A stretch of 49,659 bases of DNA from Bacteroidales bacterium (lineage in GTDB: Bacteria > Bacteroidota > Bacteroidia > Bacteroidales > UBA932). The stretch covers positions 1-49,659 of the forward strand of contig JAUYTX010000044.1 in NCBI GenBank assembly GCA_030695025.1. Direction: 5' to 3'. Made by a program: the position numbers and the translations under genes. Below, in pieces: positions 5,624 to 24,397 of this stretch. The notes under the pieces are model-generated. The model did not search any database, had not been told where the DNA came from, and saw only the letters and a list, made by a program, of their open reading frames with translations. Every line of letters starts with the position of its first letter. Within the stretch, counting starts at the first letter, position 1.

Positions 5624-8600
5624 TTATTGATTCATATCTGTATGGATATAATTGAAACGGGTCAGATATTTTCCTGCAGCAAGTCTTGCGAGCAAGTAAC
5701 TTATTGTTGACTCTGCCCCCTGGTTCAGATTTACATGCGTCTCCTCAAGTCCGTCATAACAACCTCCTGTACATGGATTATAAACAATCTGGTTTAAACG
5801 GTTCTTTCCAAGAAACCAGTTAAATGCAATTGATATCTTCTTTAAATACTCCTGGTCATTAAGTTGGTCGTAGAATGAACTTAAAGCAAGAATTGTATAG
5901 GCAACATCAATAGGCTGCTCTCCGTACCCTACCATGATGTCACCTTTTTTAAGCCATTTTTTATTTGATATTACCACCATTCCACTTTTTTTAAAGGTTT
6001 TGGAAAGCAGAAATTTAAATGACTTTATTGATATTGTTTTATAAGCTTGATCTTCTGTAGCCATCCAGGCATATAGCATGCCCTCTGAGAGAGAACTGTT
6101 TGCGTAAGTGAGATAACTCTCAAACCACATCCAATCCGTTGATGATTCGTGTTTAAACATCTCTGAAAGCCTATCTGCAAAGATTTTTATTAGGCTTATA
6201 TTTCCCTTGGAAGGAGTATGAGTATTGTAAAAGTAGAGTCCTTTTATAATGAAAGCCATTGCTCTGCTGGAGTAAATGTCTTTAATACAAGGTATTGTCC
6301 GTTTCATTATTTTAAGGGCTTTTATCACTAAATTCTCCGGTAAAACGGAGCTTTCTGAGATAAAGTACCCTAATGCCCATATCGCTCTTCCGTTAGCGTC
6401 ATCAAGGTTGACGCTGTTCTGGTCTGTAAAATTTGAATTCTGATCTACATAATTCAAAAAAGCTCCGTTTGATTGCTGACAGAGGTCAATAAAATTCAGA
6501 TATGCTTTTATAAGAGTCAGATCCTGTGGGTCTAATGTCAGTTTGTAATGCATACATATTGCAATTAAGGCTCTGGCATTATCGTCAAGTGTATACCCTG
6601 AGTCAATATCCGGTTGATTTATTCTGGCAAATTGAACAATTCCGGTATCAGTTGTCATCTCATTAATATAGTTCAAATTTATGGCCGGCAGATTGTATTT
6701 CAGAGGGATCTCGTCCTGAATGACTTTTTTGAAGAGTTCTGCATGAGCAATTGCTGAATTTTCCCATGATGTTGAGACAATTTTCTGAAGAGCGTTAGAA
6801 CTCATGCTCAATCTTAACTGCTCATCACTTAATAAATGTATAACCCCCTCGGCCAGCTGACTGGAACTCCCAAAATCAATAATTATTCCGGTATCCTTAT
6901 TCATCACCTCTGTAGCATGCGGTATTGGAGTTGATATGATTGGGCATGAACAACTCATAGCATACGCAAATGTACCACTTACAGCCTGATAGGGATTATT
7001 AGTCGTAAAGAGATATATATCTGTGAGTTGCAGATAGTCCAGCAACTCTGGAAGAGCCATGAAGCTATTTATAAAAAGGACATGCTTGCTTATCTTTAGA
7101 GTTGCGACCTTTGCTTCGAGCATCTCCCGGTATCTCTCGCCATCAGATTTTATAATAGTCGGATGAGTTTTACCAATTACTATAAAGATGACTTCCGGGT
7201 ATTGTTTTATTATAGTTGGAAGTGCATCAAGAGTTGTCTCTATACTTTTCCCGGAGCTAAGCAGACCAAAGGTTGTAAGCACTTTCTTACCCTTTAATTT
7301 GTACTTGATTTTTAGAAGATCTCTGTCAGTGTGGAGTACCAGGTGTGTGCCATGAGGTATGACAGATATTTTACTCTTTATAGTATCATACTCATTAATA
7401 AGTATTCTTGCCGAGGTGTTTGTCATTACAATAACAGCGCTTACAGCATCTATGATGTTTTTAACTTTTATCCTTAAGAAGCTGTCCGGGTTTGGAATAA
7501 CTGTGTGGAAAACCAGAATAACAGGTTTTTGGAGCGAGGATAAAAATTTTTGAAACAGACCATCTTCATTTTGAAACAGACCAAATTCATGCTGAATTAG
7601 AATTCCCTTTATAAGAGCATTATTGTTTATGAGATCTTTAAGCTTTGAGTAATCCTTATGATCACTAGTGTTAAGTATATATTCTACTTCGTCCGAGTAG
7701 CTATGTTTTTCAAATGGAGTTTCAAGGGCACAAACCTTAATTGTAAAAGATTTTCCAAATTTACTTGTTATTGAACATATCAGATCCTGAGAGTATGTAG
7801 CAATTCCGCATACTCGTGGAGGATATGATGTCAGGACAAGTATCTCCGGAGTCTTCCCTATTGATTTATCTACTTCGTCGTTATTCTCTACCAACTCTTT
7901 CAGCAAAGACGGCAGGTTTAATGAAGCACAGGCAATCTGTTCGTCGGCTGCTCCGTAATAGATAAAGAGTGTATCGCCAAAGACAACTGCACCGGTAGGA
8001 AAGACTACATTATTCACTTCACCTATAAGTTCCCAATCATATTCAGGTGAAAAGAGAGCATAAGGTAGTCGTGATATCACTTTTGTTGGATTGTCAATAT
8101 CTAGTAGCGCTGCACACGCAGAGTAAACTAATCCTCTTTGGGTCTTCTCTACCCCGTGATAAATGAGAAGCCATCCAAATTCTGTTTCAATCGGAGGACA
8201 ACCGCCTCCAACATAGGAATATTCGTGTGAATAGAAGGGGTCGAGAACAATGAATTCGTGAAAATTGTGAAAATAGTCCCTCCAGAATTCCATGGTCAAC
8301 TCATCCAGGCTTTTGACGCTAACGAGCTGTATTCCGGGTCTTATTCTATGAAGAAAAACAAATTTGCCGTCAATTTTTCTGGGGAAGAAAATAAGGTTTT
8401 TATCCCATAACATCATCTTCTTCTCCGGATCTGTCTCCTGATAATAGAATTTATGGTTACGATAATATTTTATATTTATGTCACCATCATTTTCTGCAAT
8501 ATCAACAAACTCGGAGTAGGTTATGGGCGGGACTATTATCCCCTTTTTTGTGAAATTTACAAGATTTTTAGATGTCGCCAATGCTCCTCGTGCATTTATT

Positions 8601-8905
8601 CCATCGTATGCAGTATATGTCATATAGTAGGTGTTGTCGATTGACACTATTCGTGCATCTTCAACCCCATGTGCTTCATAATCAAACTCCGACGCCATTA
8701 TTGGCCTGTCCCATCTCTCCACTAAAGTTAACGGCCCATCTAACCTGCAGTAGCCAATACTGGAGTAGTTCCCGGTACTTACAGCCCGGTAGAATATATG
8801 AACACTATCCCCTACACGTATTACAGCAGGGTTAAGCACACCCTCATTCTCAAATTCATTGGAGCTCTTCTCCAGAATTATGCCCTCTTTCTTAACTACT
8901 ACCAT
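5624..8905 (-). CDS. GH130-like / GT4 glycosyltransferase / alpha-helical fusion protein
   Basis: A 1093-residue cytoplasmic protein with no signal peptide and three parts. Residues 1-335 resemble a five-bladed GH130 mannoside phosphorylase: NPAVIRVGD, YRAVS, the catalytic-Asp motif GVEDARI (Asp83) and YYMTYTAYDG. Residues 350-735 are a GT4 glycosyltransferase, with PPRVCGIATYSQ at its start, SVIPHGTH, TTFGLLSSGKSIE, and SGTFAYAMSCSCPIISTP in place of the usual E-x7-E loop; this SGTxAYA form is typical of one GT4 subgroup. Residues 745-1085 hold TDTGIVQFARI and SGYTLDDNARAL, the helical domain that follows this GT4 subgroup in other bacteria. Known GH130 enzymes phosphorolyse or hydrolyse beta-mannosides, so the fusion may make or recycle a mannoside. 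The linked substrates are inference. Confidence 0.88.
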   Translation of the reverse strand: MVVVKKEGIILEKSSNEFENEGVLNPAVIRVGDSVHIFYRAVSTGNYSSIGYCRLDGPLTLVERWDRPIMASEFDYEAHGVEDARIVSIDNTYYMTYTAYDGINARGALATSKNLVNFTKKGIIVPPITYSEFVDIAENDGDINIKYYRNHKFYYQETDPEKKMMLWDKNLIFFPRKIDGKFVFLHRIRPGIQLVSVKSLDELTMEFWRDYFHNFHEFIVLDPFYSHEYSYVGGGCPPIETEFGWLLIYHGVEKTQRGLVYSACAALLDIDNPTKVISRLPYALFSPEYDWELIGEVNNVVFPTGAVVFGDTLFIYYGAADEQIACASLNLPSLLKELVENNDEVDKSIGKTPEILVLTSYPPRVCGIATYSQDLICSITSKFGKSFTIKVCALETPFEKHSYSDEVEYILNTSDHKDYSKLKDLINNNALIKGILIQHEFGLFQNEDGLFQKFLSSLQKPVILVFHTVIPNPDSFLRIKVKNIIDAVSAVIVMTNTSARILINEYDTIKSKISVIPHGTHLVLHTDRDLLKIKYKLKGKKVLTTFGLLSSGKSIETTLDALPTIIKQYPEVIFIVIGKTHPTIIKSDGERYREMLEAKVATLKISKHVLFINSFMALPELLDYLQLTDIYLFTTNNPYQAVSGTFAYAMSCSCPIISTPIPHATEVMNKDTGIIIDFGSSSQLAEGVIHLLSDEQLRLSMSSNALQKIVSTSWENSAIAHAELFKKVIQDEIPLKYNLPAINLNYINEMTTDTGIVQFARINQPDIDSGYTLDDNARALIAICMHYKLTLDPQDLTLIKAYLNFIDLCQQSNGAFLNYVDQNSNFTDQNSVNLDDANGRAIWALGYFISESSVLPENLVIKALKIMKRTIPCIKDIYSSRAMAFIIKGLYFYNTHTPSKGNISLIKIFADRLSEMFKHESSTDWMWFESYLTYANSSLSEGMLYAWMATEDQAYKTISIKSFKFLLSKTFKKSGMVVISNKKWLKKGDIMVGYGEQPIDVAYTILALSSFYDQLNDQEYLKKISIAFNWFLGKNRLNQIVYNPCTGGCYDGLEETHVNLNQGAESTISYLLARLAAGKYLTRFNYIHTDMNQ

Positions 8906-9274: not shown

Positions 9275-10261
9275 ATGAAATTGTTTGTCGTTAAGACTTT
9301 AATAATTAATGTCTTTGTACTTTTTGTAAGCCATCTCCATTCCCAGTCTGCAAAAATAACATTTGCTCCACAATGGATGCCTCAGGCACAATTTGCAGGA
9401 TATTACGTAGCTCAGCAGATGGGATTTTACAAAGAGGCTGGTTTAGAGGTGGAAATTATTCACCCTTCTGCAAATATCCCCGCAACAGATCTTCTCTCTT
9501 CAGGTAAAGTAGATGTAATATCTCTTTTTCTGATTACAGGAATGTCAGCTAAGAATAATGGGATGGACCTTGTGAACATAGCTCAGCTCTCTCAGCACTC
9601 AGCCATATACATAGTAACAAAAAAATCGAGCGGAATAGATAGACTTGAAAAACTTAAAGGCAAAAAAATAGGTGTCTGGAAAAGTGGTTTTGACGAGGTT
9701 CCTAAGGCCATGATGAAAGAGAAAAATTATGATGTTGAATGGATTCCGATTCTCTTCTCTGTTAACCTTTTTATGCTCGACGGAATTGATGCAATGACGG
9801 TTATGTCATATAATGAATATGATAACATAATTAATTGTGGTGTAAACGAAGATGAACTTAATGTTTTCCCGATTTCGGATTACGGTTATGATGTTCCTGA
9901 AGACGGTTTGTATTGCCTGAATGCGACCTACAATGCGAAGAAAGAGGAGTTGAAAAGATTTGTTGAGGCTACCTTCAGAGTATGGGAGTATGCATCTGCA
10001 AACAAAACAGAGGCAATAGATATTGTTCTTGACAAAATGAAGGCTGCACATATCCCGGCAAATCGGGTACATCAGGATTGGATGCTTGACAGAGTTCTTG
10101 AGATGATGAAGGGATCAAATAAGAGTAAAGATAACGGGAGAGTTAAAAAGGGAGAGCTTCTTGAAACTGACTTTAACCATGCATCAAAAATATTTGGCAA
10201 TAGCTCCGGAAACGACCTGAAATATACGTTTGAAGAGTTTTACAGGTCACCCAATCAGTAG
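9275..10261 (+). CDS. NMT1/THI5-type ABC substrate-binding protein
   Basis: A 328-residue exported binding protein (signal peptide ending near SHLHSQ). The mature start ITFAPQWMPQAQFAGYYVAQQMGFYKEAGLEVEI is the hallmark of the NMT1/THI5/SsuA-like family, which binds thiamine precursors, sulfonates or nitrate-like ligands; later LKGKKIGVW and the hinge region also fit. It opens an eight-gene operon, with only nine bases to the next gene. Oddly, the only permease and ATPase in the operon are of the polar amino acid type, which is not the usual partner of this class. It may act as an extracellular ligand sensor for the neighbouring dCache phosphatase. Ligand unknown. Confidence 0.85.
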   Translation: MKLFVVKTLIINVFVLFVSHLHSQSAKITFAPQWMPQAQFAGYYVAQQMGFYKEAGLEVEIIHPSANIPATDLLSSGKVDVISLFLITGMSAKNNGMDLVNIAQLSQHSAIYIVTKKSSGIDRLEKLKGKKIGVWKSGFDEVPKAMMKEKNYDVEWIPILFSVNLFMLDGIDAMTVMSYNEYDNIINCGVNEDELNVFPISDYGYDVPEDGLYCLNATYNAKKEELKRFVEATFRVWEYASANKTEAIDIVLDKMKAAHIPANRVHQDWMLDRVLEMMKGSNKSKDNGRVKKGELLETDFNHASKIFGNSSGNDLKYTFEEFYRSPNQ

Positions 10262-10270
10262 CTTACATCT

Positions 10271-12199
10271 ATGAAGAGAACTTCACTCTCATATCACATT
10301 ATCAAGAATGTACTGCTGTTTTGCATTGCACTCTTTCTGGTAATTTTTTCTGTCTATTACTATTTTGCCCGAAAAACTATCAGAGAAGATACAAGGGAAA
10401 ACTCTGTTTACCTTGCAAAAACAACTATCAACAAGATTGAGCAGGTTCTCACACTGGCAGAAAAAAATCCTCAAATCATAGCAAAGATGCTTGAGGCATC
10501 ATTTGTAAGTAAGGACTCTCTTGTCCCTTTTTTGAAGTCGATGTTGAGTGTAAACGATAATTTATACGGGTCCATAATAGCATTCGAACCATATTACTAC
10601 CCCGAACAGGGTATGTACTATGCCCCTTATGTGTACAGACAAGATGACTCAATTTGCACATCAATTTTAGGTGACAGAAACTATGAGTATTTTTATATGG
10701 ACTGGTACCAGATACCAAAGATTACAAACAAGCCATACTGGTCAGAGCCATATTTTGATGAAGGGGGCGGGAATGTCCTTATGACAACCTACTCGGTTCC
10801 GTTTTATAAAGATGTTAATGGAGCTAAAACCTTTAGTGGTGTCGTAACAATTGATATTACCCTTAAATGGCTCACAGAAATCATAACAGAGGTTAAAATT
10901 CTCGAGAGCGGATATGCCTTTTTACTCTCCCGCAATGGAGTGGTTATCTCACACCCAAACAGTGAGTATATTATGAACCAGACAATTTTTACAATTGCAA
11001 AGGAGAATAACCAACCGGGAATGAGAGAAACCGGAAGGAGGATGATAAGAGGCGAAAGCAGTTTTCAGGCGGCAGAGTTCAGAAGCGCATGGAAACCAGG
11101 TAAGCTTTGGATTAATTATGCTCCACTTCCGTCAAGTAAGTGGTCGATGGGTATTATTTATCCCGAAAAGGAGATGTTTGCCTCTCTTCACAGGATGAAC
11201 TTTATACTACTTGTTTTGATAATAATAGGGCTCGTAAGTCTCTCGGTTGTAATATTCAAAATTGTGAGCAAACTTACCTCTCCTCTTAAAGATTTTGCAG
11301 ATTCAGCCAGATTGATTGCGTCAGGCAACTTTAATGTCAGGCTTCCGGAGATTAAAACGGAGGACGAGATGAAAGAACTTTATAACTCTTTCTCCTTTAT
11401 GCAAAAAGAGCTGGACGAATACATGGCCACTCTGAAAGAAACCACCTCGGCCAAGGAGAAAATAGAGAGTGAATTACGTATTGCCAACGAGATTCAGATG
11501 TCCATGATTCCTCACATTTTTCCTCCTTTTCCTGATTTGTCGCAAATTGACCTTTTTGCCACACTAAAATCAGCAAAAGAGGTAGGTGGGGATTTATACG
11601 ACTTTTTTGTAATTGAAGGGAATAAATTCTGTTTTGCAATAGGTGATGTGTCAGGCAAGGGGGTACCGGCATCACTTTTTATGGCAGTGACAAGAACTCT
11701 GGTACGCTCAATATCTGACAATGTACACTCTCCTTCGGCAATAGTCGAATCCCTGAACAGATCAATCTCCCAGAATAATGACTCAAATATGTTCGTAACA
11801 CTTTTTCTCGGAGTACTGGACCTAAAAACGGGAGAACTGCTGTACACAAATGCAGGACACAATCCGCCGGTGCTTATTAGAAAAAACGGTGAGACATTTA
11901 TGTTTGAAAAGACCAAATTTATACCGGCCGGGCTCTTTGAAGATTTTAAATACGGAGAGTCATCGCTTAAACTTGAATCGGGCGATATGCTGTTTCTCTA
12001 CACAGACGGCGTAAGCGAAGCTGAAAACGTACAGGGAGATCTGTTTGGAGAACATTCAGTAATGCAGATAATTAACAATAACATAAACGCCCGGCCGCAA
12101 GAGCTGATTAACATTATGGGTAATGAAATATCTGCTCATGTAAATGGTTACACTCAATCTGACGACATAACAATGATGACAATTGTGTACAATGGATAA
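10271..12199 (+). CDS. dCache-HAMP-PP2C (RsbU/SpoIIE-type) sensor phosphatase
   Basis: A 642-residue membrane sensor. A transmembrane helix (about 14-34) is followed by a periplasmic double-Cache-like domain (about 35-305; YYAPYVYR, YWSEPYFDEG, GVVTIDITL are typical), a second helix (about 309-331), a HAMP linker (LTSPLKDFADSARLIASGNF), a coiled coil with the linker RIANEIQMSMIP, and a PP2C/SpoIIE phosphatase domain from about 430. Metal-binding motifs are present: GGDLYDFF (near 438), IGDVSGKGVPASL (near 457), LYTDGVSEA (near 575) and SDDITMM (near 630). It should dephosphorylate the STAS protein encoded two genes on. It overlaps the next gene by eight bases. Confidence 0.93.
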   Translation: MKRTSLSYHIIKNVLLFCIALFLVIFSVYYYFARKTIREDTRENSVYLAKTTINKIEQVLTLAEKNPQIIAKMLEASFVSKDSLVPFLKSMLSVNDNLYGSIIAFEPYYYPEQGMYYAPYVYRQDDSICTSILGDRNYEYFYMDWYQIPKITNKPYWSEPYFDEGGGNVLMTTYSVPFYKDVNGAKTFSGVVTIDITLKWLTEIITEVKILESGYAFLLSRNGVVISHPNSEYIMNQTIFTIAKENNQPGMRETGRRMIRGESSFQAAEFRSAWKPGKLWINYAPLPSSKWSMGIIYPEKEMFASLHRMNFILLVLIIIGLVSLSVVIFKIVSKLTSPLKDFADSARLIASGNFNVRLPEIKTEDEMKELYNSFSFMQKELDEYMATLKETTSAKEKIESELRIANEIQMSMIPHIFPPFPDLSQIDLFATLKSAKEVGGDLYDFFVIEGNKFCFAIGDVSGKGVPASLFMAVTRTLVRSISDNVHSPSAIVESLNRSISQNNDSNMFVTLFLGVLDLKTGELLYTNAGHNPPVLIRKNGETFMFEKTKFIPAGLFEDFKYGESSLKLESGDMLFLYTDGVSEAENVQGDLFGEHSVMQIINNNINARPQELINIMGNEISAHVNGYTQSDDITMMTIVYNG

Positions 12200-12620
12200 C
12201 CATAACAACCAAAAGAGCTTACTCGTCAGTAACAAAATAGACGAACTTAACAGAGTTGCCCTGTTTTTGGATGAGCTCGGTACATCCTGGGGCTTACACG
12301 ACTCTTTGGCAGCAAATTTAAATCTGGTAATTGAGGAGGCTCTGACCAATATAATATTGTATGGCTATAACGACTCTGATAACCACATTATTGAAATATT
12401 ATTAACAAGAGGTGATGGCCAAATTTCAATAACAATAAAAGATGACGGACTTGAATTTGATCCAACAAAAATGAGAGATCCCGACACAACTCTATCAGTT
12501 GAAGAGAGACCTGTTGGTGGGTTAGGCATTTTTCTGATAAAACAAATAATGGATAAAGTACAATATATGAGGGAAGGAAAAATAAATTACTTAATTTTAA
12601 CAAAAAACATCACTTTATGA
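12192..12620 (+). CDS. RsbW-like anti-sigma-factor-type serine kinase
   Basis: A 142-residue HATPase_c protein of the RsbW/SpoIIAB type. The N-box is intact (VIEEALTNIILYG, Glu49 and Asn53), as are the G1 box KDDGLEFDP (Asp84-Gly86) and the G2 box VGGLGIFLIKQ. In known systems such kinases phosphorylate a STAS protein on serine and bind a sigma factor. Here no sigma factor is in the operon. Start taken at ATG 12192, overlapping the phosphatase gene by eight bases; the frame extends nine bases further to a TTG. The stop overlaps the STAS start as ATGA. Confidence 0.92.
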   Translation: MDNHNNQKSLLVSNKIDELNRVALFLDELGTSWGLHDSLAANLNLVIEEALTNIILYGYNDSDNHIIEILLTRGDGQISITIKDDGLEFDPTKMRDPDTTLSVEERPVGGLGIFLIKQIMDKVQYMREGKINYLILTKNITL

Positions 12621-12946
12621 ATACAACCCTTATCATGTCGGGAGACTACTCAGTAATAATCGTTGAAGGAAGAGTTGATACTACAAATGCAGGCGAATTT
12701 GAAAAGGAGGTAATGGCTGTTGTTGAAAGCGGATCCGAAAAAATAATTCTTGATTGTTCTGGGTTAAAATACATAAGCAGCTCCGGGTTGAGGGTTTTTC
12801 TGATTGTGCATAAAAAGATGCTGGCAAAAAAGGGATGTTTAAAACTCTGCTCTCTGCAACCCGGGATAAAAGAAATATTTGATATTTCGGGGTTCTCATC
12901 AATTTTTTCCATCTTCCCGGATAAGCAAGCAGCCGAAGGGGACTAA
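12617..12946 (+). CDS. STAS-domain anti-anti-sigma-type protein (RsbV-like)
   Basis: A 109-residue single STAS domain. It has the family core IVEGRVDTTNAGEFE, the strand KIILDCSGLKYI and the phosphorylation loop SSSGLR; Ser55, two before Gly57, is in the position of the phosphoserine of RsbV and SpoIIAA. It would be phosphorylated by the RsbW-like kinase and dephosphorylated by the PP2C sensor, both encoded just upstream. The unphosphorylated form would bind an RsbW-type fold. Two such folds are encoded here, the kinase and the C-terminal domain of the ABC ATPase, which makes the ATPase a candidate target (inference). Confidence 0.93.
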   Translation: MNTTLIMSGDYSVIIVEGRVDTTNAGEFEKEVMAVVESGSEKIILDCSGLKYISSSGLRVFLIVHKKMLAKKGCLKLCSLQPGIKEIFDISGFSSIFSIFPDKQAAEGD

Positions 12947-12979
12947 AAGCAATAAACAACAGGATAATAATGTAACGTT

Positions 12980-13657
12980 ATGGAGTTCCTGGAATCTATA
13001 GTTAACTCATTTACTAATAACCTGATATTGAACAACGGATGGCTCGTTGTTCTAAAAGGGTTATGGGTAACTCTCCTGATCACCTCCTCCGGCCTTTTTT
13101 TCGGAACTGTTATAGGAGCAATTCTATGCTCGTCACGGCTCTCTTCTATAGGGTTACTTAGAGTAACAGCAAAAACAGTGATAGCATTTCTAAGGGGCAG
13201 TCCCGTGTTGCTTTTACTTATGGTTTTCTACTATGTAGTATTTGCAAACAGCAGGATTGATGCGGTGTATATTGCCGTGATAGCCTTTGCCCTGAACAGC
13301 GGAGCTCATATTGCCGAGATCATGCGTTCGGCACTCTCTGCAGTAGATAAAAAACAACTCGAAGCAGCCAGAATGCTGGGCTTTTCAAAAATCCGTGCAT
13401 TTATGGCAATAACACTTCCCCAGGCAGGCAGAATTGCAAGGCCGGTCTATCAGAATGCCACGATAAACCTCCTCCAGTGGACATCGGTTGTAGGATATGT
13501 AACAATAACAGATCTTACCCGTACCGTAAACAACATTGGAGCCCGCACAGGCGATCCGTTCTTTGCCCTCTTTTTTGGGATACTTATCTATCTGGGTATC
13601 TCATATCTGGTAAACTTCATGTTCACGCTGAAAATCAGAAAAAGGAAGGCATTATGA
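12980..13657 (+). CDS. Polar amino acid-type ABC transporter permease
   Basis: A 225-residue inner membrane permease of the HisM/GlnP/ArtM type. It has about five helices and the cytoplasmic EAA loop that couples to the ATPase: EAARMLGFSKIRAFMAITLPQ. The segment LLRVTAKTVIAFLRGSPVLLLLMVFYYVVF is the usual LRGTPLLVQL-like signature. Only one permease is encoded, so it probably forms a homodimer. It starts 33 bases after the STAS gene and overlaps the ATPase start as ATGA. Confidence 0.93.
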   Translation: MEFLESIVNSFTNNLILNNGWLVVLKGLWVTLLITSSGLFFGTVIGAILCSSRLSSIGLLRVTAKTVIAFLRGSPVLLLLMVFYYVVFANSRIDAVYIAVIAFALNSGAHIAEIMRSALSAVDKKQLEAARMLGFSKIRAFMAITLPQAGRIARPVYQNATINLLQWTSVVGYVTITDLTRTVNNIGARTGDPFFALFFGILIYLGISYLVNFMFTLKIRKRKAL

Positions 13658-14745
13658 TACAGACAGTTAATCTTTGCAAAAGCTTTGGAGATCTTATAAT
13701 ATTTAAAGATCTGAATATCACAGTGCAAAAGGGCGAATGTGTTGCTGTTATCGGCCCTTCCGGAGCCGGCAAGAGTGTGCTGTTCAGAACTATAGCTATG
13801 CTTGAAAAGCCGGATAGCGGGCAGGTATTTATCAATGGGACAGATATTACCCAAAAGGATGTCAATATCAATAAAGTAAGAGAGAAACTCGGAATGGTTT
13901 ACCAGGGTTTTCATCTCTTCTCGCATCTTAATGTTCTTGATAACATCACTTTGGCTCCTGTAAAGGTAAGTGGAATGAATAAAACTGAGGCCCGGAAAAA
14001 AGCTATGGAGCTTCTCTCAATGGTAGGACTGACAGAAAAAGCCACCTCATATCCTCACCAACTATCCGGGGGCCAGCAACAAAGGGTAGCAATAGCAAGA
14101 TCCCTGGCAATGGATCCGGATATTATCCTGTTTGACGAGCCCACATCTGCACTTGATCCCTCAATGACTGGAGAGGTGCTGGCTATTATAAGAAAGCTGG
14201 CACGTAGTGGTCTTACAATGATGATCTCAACTCACGAAATGAGATTTGCACAAGATGTTGCCAGCAGAGTCTTCTATATAGACGAAAAGAGTGTTTACGA
14301 GCAGGGGACTGCACAGGAGATCTTCCAAAACCCCCAAAGAGAGAAGACCAGGATGTTCATCCGCAAGCTTAAAGTTTTTAGTTACTCAATAACTTCACAC
14401 GGTTTTGATATGGTGGCAATGAATGTTCAGATTGAACTGTTTTGCCAGAAATACAATATTGAATCTAAAAAGATAAACCATATCCAGCTGGTTTTGGAGG
14501 AGCTTATACTTGAGGTGTCAGGAGAGGGAGAGAGTAACAGGCAGCTAAAAATTGATTACACTATAGAACATTCTGAGGAGAGGGGAGAGATTCTAATCTC
14601 ATTCAATTACGAAGGAGATTTTTTCAACCCTTTCGGGTCTGAAGGGGAGGGTGATCATTTAGGGATAGTTCTGATTACAGGTATAGCCAAGAATTTTGAC
14701 CATGCGTACAAAGATGGCCAGAACACCATAAATATTAACATTTAA
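13654..14745 (+). CDS. ABC ATPase fused to a degenerate RsbW-like (HATPase) domain
   Basis: A 363-residue protein. Residues 1-240 are a GlnQ/HisP-type ATPase: Walker A GPSGAGKS (34-41), Q-loop Gln84, signature LSGGQQQRVAIAR (from 137), Walker B IILFDEP (157-163) and H-loop His194. Residues 241-363 align by eye with the operon's own RsbW-like kinase: IQLVLEELILEVSG matches its N-box helix, YEGDFFNPF its DDGLEFDP, and DHLGIVLITGIA its GGLGIFLIKQI. The essential N-box Asn is Glu287, and the G1 Asp-Asp-Gly reads Tyr-Glu-Gly, so kinase activity is unlikely. It may be a docking site for the STAS protein. Start chosen at ATG 13654 (ATGA overlap with the permease); longer readings in this frame run through the permease gene. 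Confidence 0.9.
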   Translation: MIQTVNLCKSFGDLIIFKDLNITVQKGECVAVIGPSGAGKSVLFRTIAMLEKPDSGQVFINGTDITQKDVNINKVREKLGMVYQGFHLFSHLNVLDNITLAPVKVSGMNKTEARKKAMELLSMVGLTEKATSYPHQLSGGQQQRVAIARSLAMDPDIILFDEPTSALDPSMTGEVLAIIRKLARSGLTMMISTHEMRFAQDVASRVFYIDEKSVYEQGTAQEIFQNPQREKTRMFIRKLKVFSYSITSHGFDMVAMNVQIELFCQKYNIESKKINHIQLVLEELILEVSGEGESNRQLKIDYTIEHSEERGEILISFNYEGDFFNPFGSEGEGDHLGIVLITGIAKNFDHAYKDGQNTININI

Positions 14746-14757
14746 ACCCAAAGAACT

Positions 14758-15585
14758 ATGAAAAACAAAATTTCCATTTTATTAATTGCCCTTATGACAC
14801 TGGGGATAACCTCATGCGTAACTAAGACCGCAAAAATCGAGACATTGGCCGACCTTCAGGGTAAGGTGATCGGAACCCTCTCTTCAGGAATTTCTGAAGA
14901 GGGAAGCAAAGCAATGATTACAGCGCTGATTGGAGGAGAGCCTTCTCAGATACTCAGCTTCAACCGCTCTTTGGACGTGCTTGCAGCACTAAGAAGCGGT
15001 AAAATTGACGGGTTTGCATCACATCAGTTTGCAGCCGATTACAATCTAAAGAGAAACACAGATGTAATCTCAATTCCTGTGCTGGATATTCCTATTGAAG
15101 GCCAAGCTATTATGGCAGTCCGTTCAGAAGACACTAAACTTAAAGCGCACCTGGACAGCGCAATCTTAATTCTGAAAGACAATGGAACTATTGCCTCTCT
15201 GGAAGAGGAGTGGATTACAAACCTTCCTGCAGAAAATGAGCCTACATTCAACGAAATTCCTGTAATCGAAGGTGCTGCAACATACTATGTTGGAGTTTCA
15301 GGCGATCTGCCTCCGCTTGATTATGTAGCTGCAGACGGCTTCCCTGCCGGATTCAATGTTGCACTGCTTAGTGAAATTGGTAAAATACTAAATGTCAATT
15401 TCAAATTTGTCTCACTGGAAACACAGGCCAGATTTACAGCGCTTGCAAGTAAAAAGATTGATGTTGTATTCTGCCACTTCCAAAGCTCAAACACAAACTA
15501 TTTTGACGAACTGAAAAATGATGGATGGTTAGCCACTGAACCATATTTCATCTACAAAGGAGGCTGTTTTATCGTTAAAAAATGA
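14758..15585 (+). CDS. Circularly permuted amino acid-binding lipoprotein (SBP_bac_3-like)
   Basis: A 275-residue lipoprotein (lipobox ITSC, Cys20). Its two halves are in swapped order relative to ordinary family 3 binding proteins. Residues 28-153 look like the second half of a normal protein: LADLQGKVIGTLSSG, LAALRSGKIDGFASH and LKDNGTIASLEEEWI, the last being the usual C-terminal helix. Residues 176-275 look like the first half: YYVGVSGDLPPLDYV, GFPAGFNVALLSEIGKIL, ALASKKIDVVFCHF and FIVKK, which normally comes just before the second lobe. So the new termini fall at the inter-lobe hinge. The reading frame is intact, which argues against decay. It overlaps the TonB receptor start as ATGA. 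Confidence 0.85.
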   Translation: MKNKISILLIALMTLGITSCVTKTAKIETLADLQGKVIGTLSSGISEEGSKAMITALIGGEPSQILSFNRSLDVLAALRSGKIDGFASHQFAADYNLKRNTDVISIPVLDIPIEGQAIMAVRSEDTKLKAHLDSAILILKDNGTIASLEEEWITNLPAENEPTFNEIPVIEGAATYYVGVSGDLPPLDYVAADGFPAGFNVALLSEIGKILNVNFKFVSLETQARFTALASKKIDVVFCHFQSSNTNYFDELKNDGWLATEPYFIYKGGCFIVKK

Positions 15586-18500
15586 TACGATTAGCCTGCT
15601 CTGCAGCTCTGTTGATGCTGCTTTTCATTACTTCTGCATACAGCCAGGGAGCCACAACAGGTACTCTTGAAGGAAGAGTAACTGATGAGGCTTCCGGGCC
15701 TGTTGCGGGGGTTTCAATTATTGCAGTACATCTGCCATCCGGTACAAGGTATGCTGCAACATCAAGAATTGACGGTACATATTCAATCCCGGGGATGAGG
15801 GTTGGCGGGCCTTACAGGCTAACAGTAAGTTATCTGGGCTATTACAATGCTCAGTCATCAGAATTGACTATTACAGTTGGAAATACAACCAGATATGACT
15901 TTACAATAAGTGAAAAAGCGACCGAGCTGCCTCCCGGTATTGTATGGGCAAGCAGGGGAGAATCGGCAACTATAATTAACAACAGAGATATTGTTTCGCT
16001 GCCATCAATCTCAAGATTAATTACGGACTTCACCAGATTGGTATCTCACTCCCGTGGCACATATTTTACCGGGAAAGACAACAGAATGAATTCGTTGACA
16101 ATTGATGGTTCTATCTTTGGAAACTCATTCGGTATAGCAGGTATGCCGGGAGAGAGAACAGGCGTTGCCCCCATCTCTTTTGAAGCCATAGAGCAGGTTG
16201 GAATTGCAATCGCTTCACCCGATGTGAGATACTCGGGATACACAGGAGCAGCGATAAACATGGTAACAAAAAGCGGAACAAATGACTTCAGGTCATCGGT
16301 TTATTACAGCTTAAGAAATGAATCCATGGTTGGTAAAAAGGCTGCAACTGCATCCTTCAGCACAGGGACTTTCAGATTCAATATGGGAGGCGTTAATATT
16401 TCAGGACCAATCATAAAGGACCGTCTCTTTTTCTTTGCCGCTCTCGAGGCTGAAGAGTATGTAAGGCCTGCAACTCTATTTATTTCCAATGACGGAACCC
16501 AGAATGCAGGAGGCAACATTACCAGGGTTCTAAAGCAGGATTTAATTCAGTTAAGATCCTTCTTGAAAGAGAACTTCGGTTACGAAACCGGAGATTGGGA
16601 GGGATATGACTTCACCACGAAAGCATTAAGATTTATTACAAAACTGGACTACAATCTAAATGACAGAAATAAAATCAGCATACGATACAACCAACTAAAC
16701 TCCTTATCTGACCAATTCATTGCAAACTCAGATGCGCTGGGATTTGGATATCGCAGAGGAAGCATAAGTTCTCTCAACTTTCAAAACTCAAACTATTCTC
16801 TGGTAGAAAACATCAAATCTGTAATCGCAGAGTGGAACAGCGCAATAAGCGAAAAGTATGTTAATAACCTGATTGTCGGATACAGGCACCACGATGAAAG
16901 CAGAAAAAATCCGGCCAAGCTGTTTCCAATGGTAGACATTCTTAAAGATGGTGTAACCTATACAACCTTTGGAACAGAGCCATTTTCTCCATATAACGGT
17001 CTCACTTACGGCACTTTTCAGCTGCAGAATAATTTAAATATCTACCTTAAAGGGCACTCAATAGTAGCAGGATTCAACCTGGAGCGCTTCACATCAAGCG
17101 ACAGCTTCTTCCCGGCAGCACAAAGTATCTATGTTTACAACTCCCTCGATGAGTTTTATGCAGACGCTAACGGTTACCTTGCCAACCCCGACAGGACAAC
17201 ATCCAATGTAAATCTAAAAAGATTTCAGTACCAATACTCCAATATTCCCGGATTTGAAAAACCGGTTCAGGAGCTCAAAGTGTTGTATACCGGAATCTAT
17301 CTTCAGGATAAATGGTCTCTTACTCCAGAAATCAAACTCACCTTTGGCCTCAGAATGGATATTCCTCTTTTTGAAAAAACAGGCTATAGGAATACTGAGG
17401 CAGAGCAGCTGACCTTCAGGGATGAACACGGGATGGATGTCAAATATGCTACAGATAAACTCCCTAATCCAAACCCACTTTTCTCCCCAAGATTTGGCGT
17501 TGAGTGGGATGTTTTTGGTAATGATTTATTTAAGGTACGAGGAGGAAGCGGGATATTTACCGGACAACCTCCATATGTGCTAATATCAAATCAAATAGGA
17601 AATAACGGAATATTAACCGGTTTTGAATGGATGGATGGTTCTCCCAATTTCCCGCTTTACAACCGGCCCTTCAGTCCCGTTACAGACAGATATAAACCCG
17701 CTAATGTAAACGGTGCTCCGGCTTTCAGGTATAGTCTGGCATTAACAGACCCGCAATTTAAGTTTCCGCAGATCTTTAGAAACAATATCTCCGTTACCGG
17801 CCGGCTCCCCCTTGACATTGTTGCCAATATTGAATTCATTTATGACAAAGAGATTAACGGAATAACAAACATAAATGTCAATCTGCCCGCTGCAAACAGC
17901 ACCTTCAAAGGCCCGGATAACAGAGCCCGTTACACTGCCGGAAGCAGAATACACTCAAAAATCTCAAATGCAATTGTTCTTAAAAACAGTAAAGAGGGGT
18001 ACTCACGCAATTTTGCGCTTACACTTGAAAAAAGCATAAACAACCTATATTTTTGGAAAGCAGGTTACTCTTTCGGACAAACCAAAAATCTAATGGATAT
18101 CGGCACCGTAGCATACAGCACATGGAGCTACAACCCTCACCACTCTGACCCTAACAATCCACAACCCGGTATCTCGATTTACTCACCCGGGCATCGCTAT
18201 TTTGGAGCACTTTCAATGAAAATTAAGAGCTTTGGATTTGGACCGGCAATGCTCTCTCTTTTCTTTGATTCATACACCGGAGGGCGTCAAAGTTATGTTA
18301 TTTCAGGGGACCTAAACGGAGATGGTGCAAACAGCAATGACCTCATATATGTGCCAAAAAATCAGTCAGAGATGGATTTTGCAGAGTACACATCAGGAAA
18401 CCGCACTTATACAGTCGCTGAGCAGAAAGTAGCCTGGGATAACTACATTAATAACGATAAATACCTAAGCAAACGCCGCGGTATGTATGCCGAGAGAAAC

Positions 18501-18863
18501 GGGGTTGCATTACCAATGATTTCACGACTTGACCTGAGCCTTTCCCAGCAAATTAAATTGCCCTTATCTGGTAAAGAGAACAGAATCACAGCCAGAGTTG
18601 ACATCCTTAACCTTACCAACCTGATTAACCGGAACTGGGGCGTTAGCAAGACCCTTGTTACTACCCAACCGCTTATCCTCAATGGAACTGTTGCACATGA
18701 TGGAGGAGTTAAGCCCGTTTACACCCTTCGGGCAGTTAATAACCAGCTTATTGACAAATCTTTTATCACCACCGCCACCATCAACGACGTCTTCCGCCTT
18801 CAGTTTTCTATAAGGTGGGATCTTGGGTTGAGCAGGCAAAAGATATCGTCTAAGAATTATTAG
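15582..18863 (+). CDS. Oar-like TonB-dependent receptor
   Basis: A 1093-residue outer membrane protein. A signal peptide (ending SAYSQG) precedes a carboxypeptidase-regulatory-like domain (about 25-110; GTLEGRVTDEASGPVAGVSI, GTYSIPGMRVGGPYRL), a plug-like region with DNRMNSLTIDG and GYTGAAINMVTKSGTN, and a long beta-barrel with the repeated aromatic/acidic strands of Oar-type receptors. It ends in a C-terminal strand of alternating hydrophobic residues with an aromatic (FSIRWDLGL). No SusD-type partner follows. It is the last gene of the phosphorelay/ABC operon and overlaps the permuted binding protein by four bases, so it may import the same ligand across the outer membrane. Confidence 0.92.
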   Translation: MIRLACSAALLMLLFITSAYSQGATTGTLEGRVTDEASGPVAGVSIIAVHLPSGTRYAATSRIDGTYSIPGMRVGGPYRLTVSYLGYYNAQSSELTITVGNTTRYDFTISEKATELPPGIVWASRGESATIINNRDIVSLPSISRLITDFTRLVSHSRGTYFTGKDNRMNSLTIDGSIFGNSFGIAGMPGERTGVAPISFEAIEQVGIAIASPDVRYSGYTGAAINMVTKSGTNDFRSSVYYSLRNESMVGKKAATASFSTGTFRFNMGGVNISGPIIKDRLFFFAALEAEEYVRPATLFISNDGTQNAGGNITRVLKQDLIQLRSFLKENFGYETGDWEGYDFTTKALRFITKLDYNLNDRNKISIRYNQLNSLSDQFIANSDALGFGYRRGSISSLNFQNSNYSLVENIKSVIAEWNSAISEKYVNNLIVGYRHHDESRKNPAKLFPMVDILKDGVTYTTFGTEPFSPYNGLTYGTFQLQNNLNIYLKGHSIVAGFNLERFTSSDSFFPAAQSIYVYNSLDEFYADANGYLANPDRTTSNVNLKRFQYQYSNIPGFEKPVQELKVLYTGIYLQDKWSLTPEIKLTFGLRMDIPLFEKTGYRNTEAEQLTFRDEHGMDVKYATDKLPNPNPLFSPRFGVEWDVFGNDLFKVRGGSGIFTGQPPYVLISNQIGNNGILTGFEWMDGSPNFPLYNRPFSPVTDRYKPANVNGAPAFRYSLALTDPQFKFPQIFRNNISVTGRLPLDIVANIEFIYDKEINGITNINVNLPAANSTFKGPDNRARYTAGSRIHSKISNAIVLKNSKEGYSRNFALTLEKSINNLYFWKAGYSFGQTKNLMDIGTVAYSTWSYNPHHSDPNNPQPGISIYSPGHRYFGALSMKIKSFGFGPAMLSLFFDSYTGGRQSYVISGDLNGDGANSNDLIYVPKNQSEMDFAEYTSGNRTYTVAEQKVAWDNYINNDKYLSKRRGMYAERNGVALPMISRLDLSLSQQIKLPLSGKENRITARVDILNLTNLINRNWGVSKTLVTTQPLILNGTVAHDGGVKPVYTLRAVNNQLIDKSFITTATINDVFRLQFSIRWDLGLSRQKISSKNY

Positions 18864-18903: not shown

Positions 18904-19386
18904 GTGAAAAAAGCCATATACATAAGTTTTTTGATATTTTCCAACATAATTATGTTGGCACACGCAGCTGTTCCTCATCACCATCACAATGGATTAGTAG
19001 TGGCTCTGCTTGAAACGGATTATGAGAATAAACATCAGCATGGCCATCAGCATCAGCATAACCATGACCATAAGCATCAGCATAACCATGACTATGAGCG
19101 TCAACATCAACATGCTACAAATCCCCATAATCACGACAATAATGGCACATCAGAACAGTGTGCGCTTAATGAAGTTTTCACCCGTTCAGACAATGATCTA
19201 AAAATACGTCTTTCTGAAAGGTATGATTATAAATCGACCCAGTTCTTTGTATTAAAAAATGATATAATCAAGTTTGTTTTTTTAAGTGAGGGCGGTTTAC
19301 CGTTCAGGCAAAAACCATATTTTAAATTATATCCTCCAAATTTCTCTTACGGCTCTACAGGATTGAGAGCACCTCCAGTTTGTTAA
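18904..19386 (+). CDS. Histidine-rich exported protein, metal-efflux associated
   Basis: A 160-residue protein with a signal peptide ending near LAHAAVP, then HHHH and a run of some 60 residues made mostly of His, Gln, Asn and Asp (KHQHGHQHQHNHDHKHQHNH and similar), encoded by an imperfect cat/cag repeat. The C-terminal part is hydrophobic-aromatic and resembles the short His-rich proteins (DUF6769-like) found beside Cus/Czc systems in Bacteroidota. It probably buffers or delivers divalent or monovalent metal in the periplasm. GTG is used as the start, 20 bases after a -7 box. Metal identity cannot be told. Confidence 0.75.
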   Translation: MKKAIYISFLIFSNIIMLAHAAVPHHHHNGLVVALLETDYENKHQHGHQHQHNHDHKHQHNHDYERQHQHATNPHNHDNNGTSEQCALNEVFTRSDNDLKIRLSERYDYKSTQFFVLKNDIIKFVFLSEGGLPFRQKPYFKLYPPNFSYGSTGLRAPPVC

Positions 19387-19503
19387 TTCTAAAATTTCTG
19401 TTATAAAGACAGCAAATGAACTTGTTTAATACAGTCCATTGCTCTCTTGTGTATGCATTAAATAACCTAAAAGATAGGGAATTAACAAATAAAATTATAA
19501 AAA

Positions 19504-19767
19504 ATGAAAACTTTTAAAATATCAGCAATCCTAATATCTGCATTTATCATTCTAAGTCTTAACTCTTGTAACAACTCTTCAAATAAAAATCAACCTGAGG
19601 GCACACATGTTCATGATGATGGTTCTGTGCACGAATCACATACTGACGAAACTAAAAGCACCACGCCACAAGAAAGCTTCCAAGTTGAAGCAGACACAAC
19701 GGTTACGCAACCAGAAAAAAAAGATGACCATGGGCATGACCACTCTGACCCAAACCACAAACACTAG
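19504..19767 (+). CDS. Small His-rich lipoprotein
   Basis: An 87-residue lipoprotein (lipobox LNSC). The mature part is strongly hydrophilic with His/Asp clusters, THVHDDGSVHESH near the front and DDHGHDHSDPNHKH at the very end. Such tails are probable metal-binding sites. It lies 13 bases before the membrane fusion protein gene and is part of the efflux operon. No fold is recognisable. Confidence 0.75.
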   Translation: MKTFKISAILISAFIILSLNSCNNSSNKNQPEGTHVHDDGSVHESHTDETKSTTPQESFQVEADTTVTQPEKKDDHGHDHSDPNHKH

Positions 19768-19780
19768 TAGCTGAGTTAAT

Positions 19781-21286
19781 ATGAAAATTGTTAATTTATT
19801 TGTGGCGTTGCTTTTAGCAGCCGCCATAACATCCTGTGGCAATAAGCAAACCGCCGCGGCCGAGGATCACCCTCACGATGAAAACCTTCAACTTACAGCA
19901 TACAGTGAAACATTTGAAGTGTATGCCGAAGCTAAACCATTTGTAGCCGGACAAGAAAGTAATATTCTAGCTCATTTCTCTTTCCTAAAAAATTTTAAAC
20001 CAATTACAGAAGGGAGGATTACAGTAAGTCTAATAGTTGGTGCTGAAGGTATCCGGCAAACACTTGAAAAGCCATTACGTACAGGCATATATGAATTCTT
20101 TTTAACCCCCGCCACTGCCGGAGTAGGAAAAATGATTTTCGACATTGAGACTCCAGATATGAAATCACAGATTGTTGTCCATAATTTGAGAGTTTTTACT
20201 GAGGTGCATGATGCACAACATTTTGCTGCTGGTGCGATTGCCTCCGCTAACAATGGCGCTGTTTTCACCAAAGAGCAAAGTTGGAAGCTGGATTTTGCAA
20301 CGGAAGAGGTCCATTTGGAGCCCTTTGGCCAAGTGATTCATACTGTAGCACAGATAATGCCATCGCAGGGAGATCAAAGGGTGGTTGTTGCAAGGGCTGG
20401 AGGGATAATATCTTTTCCCGCTCAGGAAATAGTGGAAGGGAAAAATGTAAACGAAGGAGAGCAGCTATTCTCAGTGAAAAGCGACGGTATGGCAGATAAC
20501 AACCTCTCTGTGCGCTTGAGTGAAGTAACTTCGGAATACAACAGAGCTAAAGCTGAGTATGAACGTAAAAAGGATTTGGCCAAGGATAATATCGTTTCAC
20601 AAAGCGATCTTTTAAAGGCGCAAACCGAGTATACTAATGCCAAAGCTGTATACAGCAACCTTAGTTCAAATTTTAATATGGGCAAGCAGACAATCACTTC
20701 ACCCATAAGAGGCTATATCACACAAATTCTGGTTAGTAATGGTCAATATGTTGAGACAGGTGAGCCTGTTGCAATTGTTTCCCGAAATATTGATTTGTTT
20801 GTAAAAGCTGAATTACAGCCCAAATATTACCCATTATTGAACAGTATTGTATCTGCAACCTTTGTTAACACCGGCAGCAACTTAAGATATACCCTTGAAG
20901 AGTTGGACGGGAGGGTAGTCTCTTTCGGCAAATCATCAGACCTTTCCAATCCCCTTATCCCTGTTTTTTTTAAAGTGAAAAACAATGTGGGATTACTTCC
21001 CGGAAGCTTTATAGATGTATTTATAAAAACACGAACTAACAATTTGGCAAAAACTGTTTCCAACGAAGCTATTATTGAAGAGATGGGGAGCTATTTTGTT
21101 TACATTCAGATTACTCCTGAGTTTTTTGAAAAAAGGTTGGTTCGTAAAGGAGTAACAGATGGGTTTCGTACTGAAATACTGGATGGAGTTTCTGCTGGAG
21201 AGAGGTTTGTCAGCAAGGGTGCAATTTTGGTTAAGCTTGCACAAGCATCGGGTGCCCTGGATGCACATTCGGGTCATGTACATTAA
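19781..21286 (+). CDS. Heavy-metal RND efflux periplasmic adaptor (CusB/CzcB-like)
   Basis: A 501-residue lipoprotein (lipobox ITSC). After the lipid anchor comes an extra beta-rich domain (about 40-150; AHFSFLKNFKPITEGRITV, TPATAGVGKMIFDIET). Next come the adaptor parts: a beta-barrel strand region, a helical hairpin (LSEVTSEYNRAKAEYERKK through LLKAQTEYTNAKAVYSNL), the lipoyl-like ITSPIRGYITQILVSNGQYVETGEPVAIV, and the membrane-proximal domain up to the His-containing end DAHSGHVH. It links the inner membrane pump to the outer membrane channel encoded downstream. The gap to the pump gene is 12 bases. Confidence 0.92.
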   Translation: MKIVNLFVALLLAAAITSCGNKQTAAAEDHPHDENLQLTAYSETFEVYAEAKPFVAGQESNILAHFSFLKNFKPITEGRITVSLIVGAEGIRQTLEKPLRTGIYEFFLTPATAGVGKMIFDIETPDMKSQIVVHNLRVFTEVHDAQHFAAGAIASANNGAVFTKEQSWKLDFATEEVHLEPFGQVIHTVAQIMPSQGDQRVVVARAGGIISFPAQEIVEGKNVNEGEQLFSVKSDGMADNNLSVRLSEVTSEYNRAKAEYERKKDLAKDNIVSQSDLLKAQTEYTNAKAVYSNLSSNFNMGKQTITSPIRGYITQILVSNGQYVETGEPVAIVSRNIDLFVKAELQPKYYPLLNSIVSATFVNTGSNLRYTLEELDGRVVSFGKSSDLSNPLIPVFFKVKNNVGLLPGSFIDVFIKTRTNNLAKTVSNEAIIEEMGSYFVYIQITPEFFEKRLVRKGVTDGFRTEILDGVSAGERFVSKGAILVKLAQASGALDAHSGHVH

Positions 21287-21298
21287 TAGCAATATGTT

Positions 21299-24200: not shown

Positions 24201-24397
24201 TGACTGCCCTTACATCGGCATTAGCATTAATACCGTTGGTATTAAATGGCGATAAATCTGGTAATGAAATTCAAAGTCCTATGGCAGTTGTTGTATTGGG
24301 AGGACTTTTAACATCTACCCTTCTCAATATATATATCGTGCCCATCGTTTATGAAATGCTTCAAAACAGAAGATTAAAGAAAGAAGAGCTATTATGA
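21299..24397 (+). CDS. Heavy-metal efflux RND pump (CusA/CzcA family)
   Basis: A 1032-residue inner membrane RND transporter with 12 predicted helices and two large periplasmic loops. Signatures include MDVDVFPDLTAPTVVVMT near the start, SSIMGEILFVGLQ, the TM4 region GGMCIAIGSLVDDAIVDVENV (acidic residues near 401-408) and the second-half GFITLFGIATRNGILLISKYQ. Length and motifs fit the HME family that expels Cu, Ag, Zn, Co or Cd using the proton gradient. The precise metal is not evident; the His-rich partners fit Zn or Cu. It overlaps the outer membrane gene by four bases (ATGA). Confidence 0.95.
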   Translation: MLNNIIKFSLENKLFILLGAVLLIVGGTYTFQKMDVDVFPDLTAPTVVVMTDAHSMATEEVERLVSFPIETAVNGATDVRRVRSASLQGYSFVWVEFDWGTDIFQARQIVSEKMVTLTGSLPSGISPILAPQSSIMGEILFVGLQSDSTSMMELRTLADWVVKPAILATGGVSQVTIIGGDYKQYQILADPVKMNAYGVTMNELEIIGKTLSTNSTGGVVRDYGNEYSLRGMARTNDLDEMGRTYLKTRNGKPVVLSDVAEIEIGTPVKMGHASQNAKPSVILAISKQPNINTLNVTERIEQNLAEIQKTFPADVRMDTKIFRQADFIEASVNNVGLALMEGAIFVVIILFLFLASFRTTIISVIAIPLSLLGTIIVLYFLGMNINTMTLGGMCIAIGSLVDDAIVDVENVYKRLRQNHLKPKEDRESALTIVFNASSEVRMPIINSTLIIIASFTPLFFLSGMEGRMLVPLGIAFIVALSMSTVVALTVTPLLCQMMLSSDKYLNKKKRDSWLTRNLSGNYQISLGWVLSNKKKVLFPTIAILIVAIVLFLRMGQSFLPEFNEGSLTISAVTKPGVTLNESNRLGNLIETELLTISEVTSTARRTGRGELDEHSQSTNSAEIDVNFKLDKRSREVFMNDVRHKLGEIPGIAVTVGQPLGHRIDHMLSGTRANIAIKLFGTDLSQMFMIANQVKSSVDGIEGLVDVAVEQQTETPELQVRANRGKLARYGITIEDFNKFIELAFAGEKLSEIYEGQRSFDLVLRLNKNYTENIEQIKSALIDTENGKKVPLEEVAEIVSVGGPNSISRENVQRKIVISANVAGRDLTGVVADIKKSIEESIKLPEGYRIEYGGQFESAQNASRILFLTSILAICVIFLLLYGEFKNATLSAIVLLNLPLALIGGVFAVYFTSGIVSIPSIIGFITLFGIATRNGILLISKYQNMQYENVPLYKAVRLGSLDRLNPIIMTALTSALALIPLVLNGDKSGNEIQSPMAVVVLGGLLTSTLLNIYIVPIVYEMLQNRRLKKEELL

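Follow-up and report, generated by a model that had tools for sequence, protein, structure and literature searches.

The SpoIIAA/SpoIIAB/SpoIIE and RsbV/RsbW/RsbU systems of Bacillus are partner switches composed of a STAS protein, a GHKL serine kinase and a SpoIIE-type phosphatase. The same three components are encoded in an operon of eight genes at positions 9275–18863 of contig JAUYTX010000044.1 from a Bacteroidales bacterium (assembly GCA_030695025.1), the whole analysed stretch of 49,659 nucleotides being referred to as the window. The operon differs from the Bacillus switches in having no sigma-factor gene, a SigB/F/G-type factor being found over the cut-off in 0/18 genomes, and in that a kinase-like domain, which shares the SpoIIAB/RsbW fold and has lost the ATP-binding residues, forms the C-terminal part of an ATP-binding cassette (ABC) ATPase. 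A partner switch with the ABC importer as its output is considered, with modest confidence, the best explanation of this arrangement; whereas the best-known switches control gene expression, this one may have the importer as its direct target.

Outputs other than sigma factors have been described. The SiaABCD system of Pseudomonas aeruginosa resembles the operon in its PP2C phosphatase SiaA, kinase SiaB and STAS-like protein SiaC, and differs from it in that the output is the diguanylate cyclase SiaD and not a transporter (PMC7647112). The first-pass annotation of the window gave the known outputs as a sigma factor or a small number of enzymes and so omitted MlaB, which is a STAS protein bound to the ABC ATPase MlaF and needed for the stable place of MlaF in its complex (PMC7367683). 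MlaFB is like the operon in that an ABC ATPase is paired with a STAS protein of one domain, and a threonine lies at the Mla interface; phosphorylation as a control of such a pair was treated by its authors as an open question (PMC7367683). MlaFB belongs to a lipid transporter and its ATPase tail, as given there, has about 25 residues, whereas the operon encodes a PAAT importer with a pseudokinase domain of about 125 residues (PMC7367683). The operon differs from MlaFB also in encoding a kinase and a phosphatase alongside. We know of no kinase/phosphatase pair for Mla and of no pseudokinase docking domain in SiaABCD. The transporter itself is related to the GlnPQ-type PAAT importers, with which it shares the families of the ATPase and the permease, many relatives also having tandem binding domains on the permease; it differs from them in its permuted binding domains and the extra C-terminal domain of the ATPase.

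Among the papers listed by searches of the open-licence PubMed Central (PMC) literature, subscription papers being outside its scope, none was seen to describe an ABC importer as the target of a partner switch, a SpoIIAB-like domain carried by an ABC ATPase, or a solute-binding protein that is circularly permuted in nature. A review of STAS domains contains 0 occurrences of "ABC transporter" and 0 of "MlaB" (PMC8256260). The parts are of known kinds, and within that literature the novelty lies in their combination.

A SpoIIAB/RsbW-type domain on the ABC ATPase

The first-pass annotation had rightly called the ATPase a fused one; the identity of its extra C-terminal stretch (the tail, about 125 residues) as an RsbW/SpoIIAB-type domain and the permutation of the second binding protein are additional features. 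Pairwise BLASTP of the tail against the operon kinase gave no match, and a tail profile gave no convincing match among PDB sequences, the evidence for its identity being a comparison of profiles and folds. When the AlphaFold2 model of the tail (pLDDT, the predicted local distance difference test score, 86.9) was compared with the PDB by Foldseek, ranks 1–19 were all entries of partner-switch kinases (best E 1.9e-6), namely SpoIIAB, UsfX, another anti-SigF factor, RsbW, SiaB (a SiaB–SiaC entry at rank 15) and Rv1364c, and histidine kinases started only at rank 20. Judging by the fold, the chains matched in these entries would be the kinases rather than their partners. Alignment by hhalign of a profile of 19 tails (A1: the window tail plus 18 of 34 domain sequences) with one of the operon-kinase family (A2: 13 of the 17 kinase sequences later assembled) gave a probability of 97.3 and E 2e-11. 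A larger tail profile (A3), consisting of the window tail and 76 of 81 sequences from loci L083–L162 after removal of one fragment and four near-copies, alone matched kinase open reading frames (ORFs) in other genomes with E down to 4e-8, and also a 713-residue frame in genome G066. In Pfam the tail alone matched HATPase_c_2 with E 0.075, under the curated cut-off yet collinear over most of the model. On the basis of the profile–profile score, the kinases matched by A3 and the first 19 Foldseek ranks, the tail is a SpoIIAB/RsbW-type domain, with the GHKL fold of the anti-sigma kinases.

The N-box glutamate is present in 77/77 aligned tails and 25/25 kinases. The N-box asparagine, found in 25/25 kinases, occurs in only 3/77 tails (L096, L103 and L104), and the seven commonest residues in the column of the DxG aspartate, accounting for 76 of the 77 tails, do not include aspartate, as compared with aspartate in 24/25 kinases. 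The GGLG motif is intact in 25/25 members of the kinase family. The tail therefore lacks, as far as the alignment indicates, the asparagine and aspartate with which RsbW/SpoIIAB kinases bind Mg-ATP, and it is probably not a kinase. In the SypA–SypE model the STAS serine is hydrogen-bonded by a glutamate of the kinase, and the model superimposes on the SpoIIAA–SpoIIAB and RsbV–RsbW crystals (PMC10120452). The equation of this STAS-facing kinase glutamate with the N-box glutamate of the tail is our own reading. Since the ATP-binding residues are lost yet the putative STAS-facing glutamate is kept, the tail looks like a docking site. Its best interpretation is as a pseudokinase receiver, and it plausibly offers the STAS protein a place to dock on the transporter. 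The ABC ATPases MetN and ModC have C-terminal regulatory domains, and the tail occupies the same place.

Linkage to switch genes and rival explanations

All 27 fused loci in 24 genomes with a fused ATPase were set against 40 unfused ABC ATPases of the same genomes, chosen by hand among the next-best matches listed; some of the compared stretches were cut by contig ends. A STAS, kinase or SpoIIE gene lies no more than about 9 kb away at 13/27 fused and 0/40 unfused loci (Fisher p 8e-7). In a named genome collection, 254 of 346 candidate stretches were called relatives, and the best 80 loci of the 254 (the named loci) were examined. The tail and the ABC ATPase lie in one ORF at 79 of these 80, the contig ending first at L089. 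At least one switch component was found at 24 of them, STAS plus kinase at 16 and all three components at 12, many loci being cut by contig ends; the order of the components varies between lineages. On a tree of the ATPases with 78 rows, built by a quick method, starred branches force at least 6 of the 9 changes that the STAS-plus-kinase linkage requires, gain and loss not being distinguishable in this count. Furthermore, in genome G017, which belongs to the window's genus, a window-like cassette (70% identity in the binding protein, 76% in the phosphatase, 57% in the kinase and 75% in the STAS protein) immediately precedes another fused transporter (L030), the ATP-binding domains of the two ATPases being 54% and their tails 23% identical. 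Two distinct fused transporters are thus accompanied by this kind of cassette.

For co-occurrence at the level of whole genomes, 41 genomes with the fusion were compared with 39 without, chosen at about 90% completeness or more. Within the window's family, a strong SpoIIE match (E < 1e-40) was present in 9/9 genomes with the fusion and 3/22 without, a p value of 1e-5 that is generous because the genomes are related. A SigB/F/G-type sigma factor as the output was rejected: none is encoded in the operon and 0/18 genomes passed the cut-off of TIGR02980 (234.35 bits), a search aimed at this kind of output and no other. In 17 genomes the best score was 103–118 bits, the match probably being the main sigma factor; in G014, which is 76% complete, it was 22.7 bits.

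In the proposed mechanism, the dCache phosphatase would sense an external ligand, perhaps by way of the NMT1-type binding protein. Its SpoIIE domain would dephosphorylate the STAS protein and the RsbW-like kinase would rephosphorylate it, as suggested by their intact motifs. Unphosphorylated STAS protein would leave the kinase and dock on the SpoIIAB-like, non-kinase tail of the importer ATPase, and docking would alter the closure of the ATPase dimer or the stability of the complex, gating uptake through either activation or inhibition. The first-pass annotation had named the transporter as the natural output; the tail now gives that proposal a molecular basis, and the linkage to fused ATPases and the lack of a SigB/F/G factor support it, whereas the co-occurrence is not strict. 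Control of the ATPase by the STAS protein is the best-supported mechanism that we infer.

Several observations weigh against an importer output. At 14/27 fused loci the neighbouring 9 kb or so, or the stretch as far as the end of the contig, showed no switch gene, only 4/40 unfused controls adjoin a family-3 binding or permease gene, so that most controls are not of the same transporter type, and two of the 13 linked loci (L065 and L066) are near-identical copies in one genome. The named loci were found through the ATPase tail and so do not measure the reverse association. Linkage is also clustered on the ATPase tree (9 changes as against a mean of 15.6 with shuffled labels), which means that relatedness inflates the counts. 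The suggestion that STAS protein, phosphatase and fused ATPase always occur together is false in its strict form, because, in a family taken to be the Chlorobiaceae, 6/28 genomes with the fusion (G111, G224, G248, G284, G355 and G374) lack a SpoIIE match at E <= 0.001 and 3/22 members of the window's family (G018, G027 and G037) have strong SpoIIE and no detected fused ATPase; the tail may work without the switch, or with another partner. Between the window and L030, STAS proteins 75% identical stand beside tails only 23% identical, with no obvious co-evolution. Finally, Chlorobiaceae tails are not relaxed where linkage is absent, the mean distance ratio being 3.04 at 12 linked and 3.08 at 19 unlinked loci. 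A decay of the tail away from switch genes is not supported in this family, the sign at matched ATPase identity being mixed.

The genomes lacking SpoIIE, the unlinked loci, the equal constraint on the tails and the single STAS type beside very different tails all speak for another reading, in which the tail serves this class of importers as an independent domain for regulation or dimerisation, comparable to the C-terminal domains of MetN and ModC, and the switch is merely co-expressed, with its output elsewhere and unrecognised. We consider this rather unlikely, since it leaves unexplained why the tail belongs to a family of STAS-binding kinases, why switch genes cluster at fused and not at unfused ATPases, and why the N-box glutamate is invariant beside lost ATP-binding residues; the SigB/F/G search also stands against it. 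The same anatomy would permit the importer to be an input, the tail capturing or releasing the STAS protein according to the transport state so that flux tunes a switch with another final target. Transporters are known as co-sensors in other systems, and in G013 the cassette (L233) lies on a different contig from the transporter gene. However, the cassette already has a sensor of its own in the dCache domain and the adjacent binding protein, and no alternative output is known, although one may have escaped the neighbourhood scans, which covered the operon's own families; we regard this possibility as improbable. That the tail has kept nucleotide binding or kinase activity, the transporter itself phosphorylating the STAS protein, is hardly credible: the GHKL fold and the asparagine kept in three tails would allow it, but the asparagine is lost in 74/77, the DxG aspartate is missing from the commonest residues of its column, and the operon has a separate, intact kinase.

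Gene layout, conservation and distribution

The genes, their order and their small gaps and overlaps were all confirmed by the ORF layout and family scans (Table 1). All eight are on the + strand, collinear and tightly packed, with successive spacings (gap +, overlap −) of +9, −8, −4, +33, −4, +12 and −4 nt. Strong family matches rule out chance or mechanical ORFs as their origin. The kinase probably starts at ATG 12192, which gives its 8-nt overlap with the phosphatase stop, and the ATPase probably at ATG 13654, in both cases instead of the longer mechanical ORF start. Scans for promoters and terminators gave matches not clearly above those in shuffled sequences.

Table 1. Features of the operon
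Feature	Coordinates	Strand	Evidence
NMT1/SsuA-like periplasmic binding protein (SBP1)	9275..10261	+	PF09084 E 1.5e-37
dCache-HAMP-SpoIIE (PP2C) membrane sensor phosphatase	10271..12199	+	SpoIIE, PDC/dCache and HAMP matches
RsbW/SpoIIAB-type serine kinase, catalytic motifs intact	12192..12620	+	PF13581 (HATPase_c_2 family) E 1.5e-25
Single-domain STAS protein	12617..12946	+	PF01740 E 8e-20
PAAT (GlnP/EhuC-like) ABC permease	12980..13657	+	TIGR01726 65.7 bits, cut-off 42.2
ABC ATPase, full gene with C-terminal domain	13654..14745	+	
ABC ATPase domain (GlnQ/EhuA-like)	13654..14358	+	PF00005 E 1.4e-37; TIGR03005 E 4e-85
Degenerate SpoIIAB/RsbW-like C-terminal domain of the ATPase, proposed STAS docking site	14359..14745	+	Fold, profile, residues
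Family-3 solute-binding lipoprotein, circularly permuted	14758..15585	+	Lobe 2 first, then N-terminal part of lobe 1
Oar-like TonB-dependent-type outer-membrane receptor	15582..18863	+	PF25183 E 1.2e-41; PF13620 E 9e-18

The phosphatase matches the SpoIIE model PF07228 over positions 2–189 of 192 (E 1.2e-50), and its sensor part matches PDC/dCache (E 5e-33 and 2e-16) and HAMP (E 5e-8). Judged by such family matches, the STAS protein, kinase and phosphatase of a STAS/RsbW/SpoIIE partner switch are all present, and so are the PAAT permease and GlnQ-like ATPase of a PAAT/GlnPQ importer. The ATPase scores about equally against EhuA (the TIGR03005 match of Table 1) and GlnQ (E 5e-83), in both cases under the equivalog cut-off. 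Among the operon hits listed there is no MCE family that would indicate an MCE-type lipid transporter (MlaE/MlaD), the permease being of the PAAT type, and no sigma-factor family was matched by any of the eight proteins, as had been claimed from the gene content. Candidate phosphorylation sites of the STAS protein are Ser54–Ser56 in ISSSGLR, and SSxGLR recurs among cassette STAS proteins. The operon STAS protein is the only stand-alone STAS match at E <= 0.001 in the host genome (2.25 Mb, 91% complete), the other PF01740 match lying inside a 583-residue frame.

The predicted conservation of the gene set held in part: the full operon is present in three close relatives (L020–L022), and three others (L023, L025 and L026) have the transporter half without the phosphatase–kinase–STAS cassette. 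The contig of L024 stops inside the ATPase. An Oar-like receptor accompanies the window-type transporter in 7/7 close relatives. Downstream of the transporter, L025 and L026 encode STAS fusion proteins of 747 and 707 residues. STAS-domain proteins of 707–753 residues are also found less than 10 kb from a fused transporter at L087:16036, L088:14486, L132:12315 and L157:4367, and that of L087, which alone was scanned with Pfam, consists of an N-terminal STAS domain and TCAD9/APH phosphotransferase-like domains. At L106:3637, L111:3631 and L118:2130, STAS-like proteins are encoded about 2.3–2.4 kb upstream of a fused permease–ATPase pair, with IASSFIR in place of the usual SSxG phospho-site motif.

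A protein of the SBP1 type adjoins the phosphatase gene at 9 of the 12 named loci having all three switch components, and it is also found in cassettes that lie at a distance from the transporter (L233, L235 and L236). The NMT1-type protein is probably a sensory partner of the phosphatase. At L235:3785-8658 and L236:3548-8421 an NMT1-type protein adjoins a dCache-HAMP-GAF-histidine kinase, and the SpoIIE domain is on a protein of its own that comes next (Pfam on L235), suggesting that the pair of binding protein and dCache sensor may be general.

The tail was found in 13/80 genomes of the kinship sample and 43/395 of the phylum sample, the host genome being counted in both. Among the best 80 named loci, Bacteroidota, Chlorobiota, Ignavibacteriota, Thermodesulfobacteriota, Pseudomonadota, Bacillota, Chloroflexota and other phyla are represented, and the closest named relatives of the window's fused ATPase belong to metagenome-assembled genomes of Bacteroidales/Bacteroidetes. 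The contigs of L090 and L133 are labelled Clostridia and Alphaproteobacteria, yet they fall inside Bacteroidota on the ATPase tree and are probably mis-binned, recent transfer being the alternative. Among named organisms, all three switch families occur less than 10 kb from a fused ATPase in Rhodocyclus purpureus DSM 168 and in Novosphingobium arvoryzae KCTC 32422. Plasmid pSRC1 of Selenomonas ruminantium TAM6421 (L239) carries a fused ATPase, annotated merely as amino acid ABC transporter ATP-binding protein; the binding protein there is permuted as well, and about 7 kb upstream there is a STAS gene. In G154, a single-contig genome, the near-identical switch-plus-transporter clusters L065 and L066 are about 200 kb apart.

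Outside the operon, positions 5624–8905 of the window (− strand) are occupied by a single ORF of 1093 residues composed of GH130 mannoside-phosphorylase-like and GT4-type glycosyltransferase domains and an unassigned C-terminal region. The operon is followed (18904–25572) by a DUF6769 protein, a small His-rich ORF and then genes that by eye resemble a metal RND efflux system; the family scan downstream of the operon covered 18904–19386.

Circularly permuted binding proteins and implications

The second binding protein of the operon is circularly permuted, as judged from the order of its matches to known structures and lobe models. A profile of 28 family-3 members (A4) was searched against the PDB, and its residues 163–269 were aligned with residues 2–104 of 6svf, and residues 29–150 with residues 112–227. 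Two matched stretches are found in 54 of the 60 matches listed, the three best being printed in full. The AlphaFold2 model of the protein has a pLDDT of 86.7, and its Foldseek TM-scores of 0.19–0.53 among the 50 rows listed are low, as expected of a permutation, the evidence used here being the sequence result. Separate models for the two halves of the binding domain showed lobe 2 followed by lobe 1 as the only order in 135/137 distinct binding-domain ORFs at 103 fused loci, the remaining 2/137 matching one half only. In contrast, the order was canonical in 4/4 unfused control loci having a family-3 protein. In this respect the transporter departs from PAAT/GlnPQ importers, whose lobes are in the canonical order. 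At fused loci the permease itself may bear between one and four of the permuted domains, and such tandem domains offer an obvious route to permutation, by a shift of the frame by half a domain. The match of A4 to 6h30, a tandem of two domains, fits this route, as residues 21–259 of the query align with 96–321 of the chain, across the domain junction. The receptor fold of solute-binding proteins has been deliberately circularly permuted by engineers, and the proteins described here would be a natural circular permutation in that fold.

More broadly, these loci may represent a widespread and undescribed class of ABC importers gated directly by protein phosphorylation, in which an active kinase yields the STAS protein to an inactive relative of its own that is built into the ATPase, and with which the permuted binding domains are co-inherited; this wider proposal could as well prove wrong as right. 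Little is understood of how ABC importers are controlled after translation. With a STAS protein, kinase, phosphatase and ATPase bearing a kinase-like receiver in one operon, the question posed by the MlaFB authors becomes directly testable, and cultured organisms (R. purpureus, N. arvoryzae and S. ruminantium) carry parts or all of the system. If the proposed mechanism is true, transporters would join the outputs of partner switching, and the conversion of a kinase to a pseudokinase would be a way to wire new outputs.

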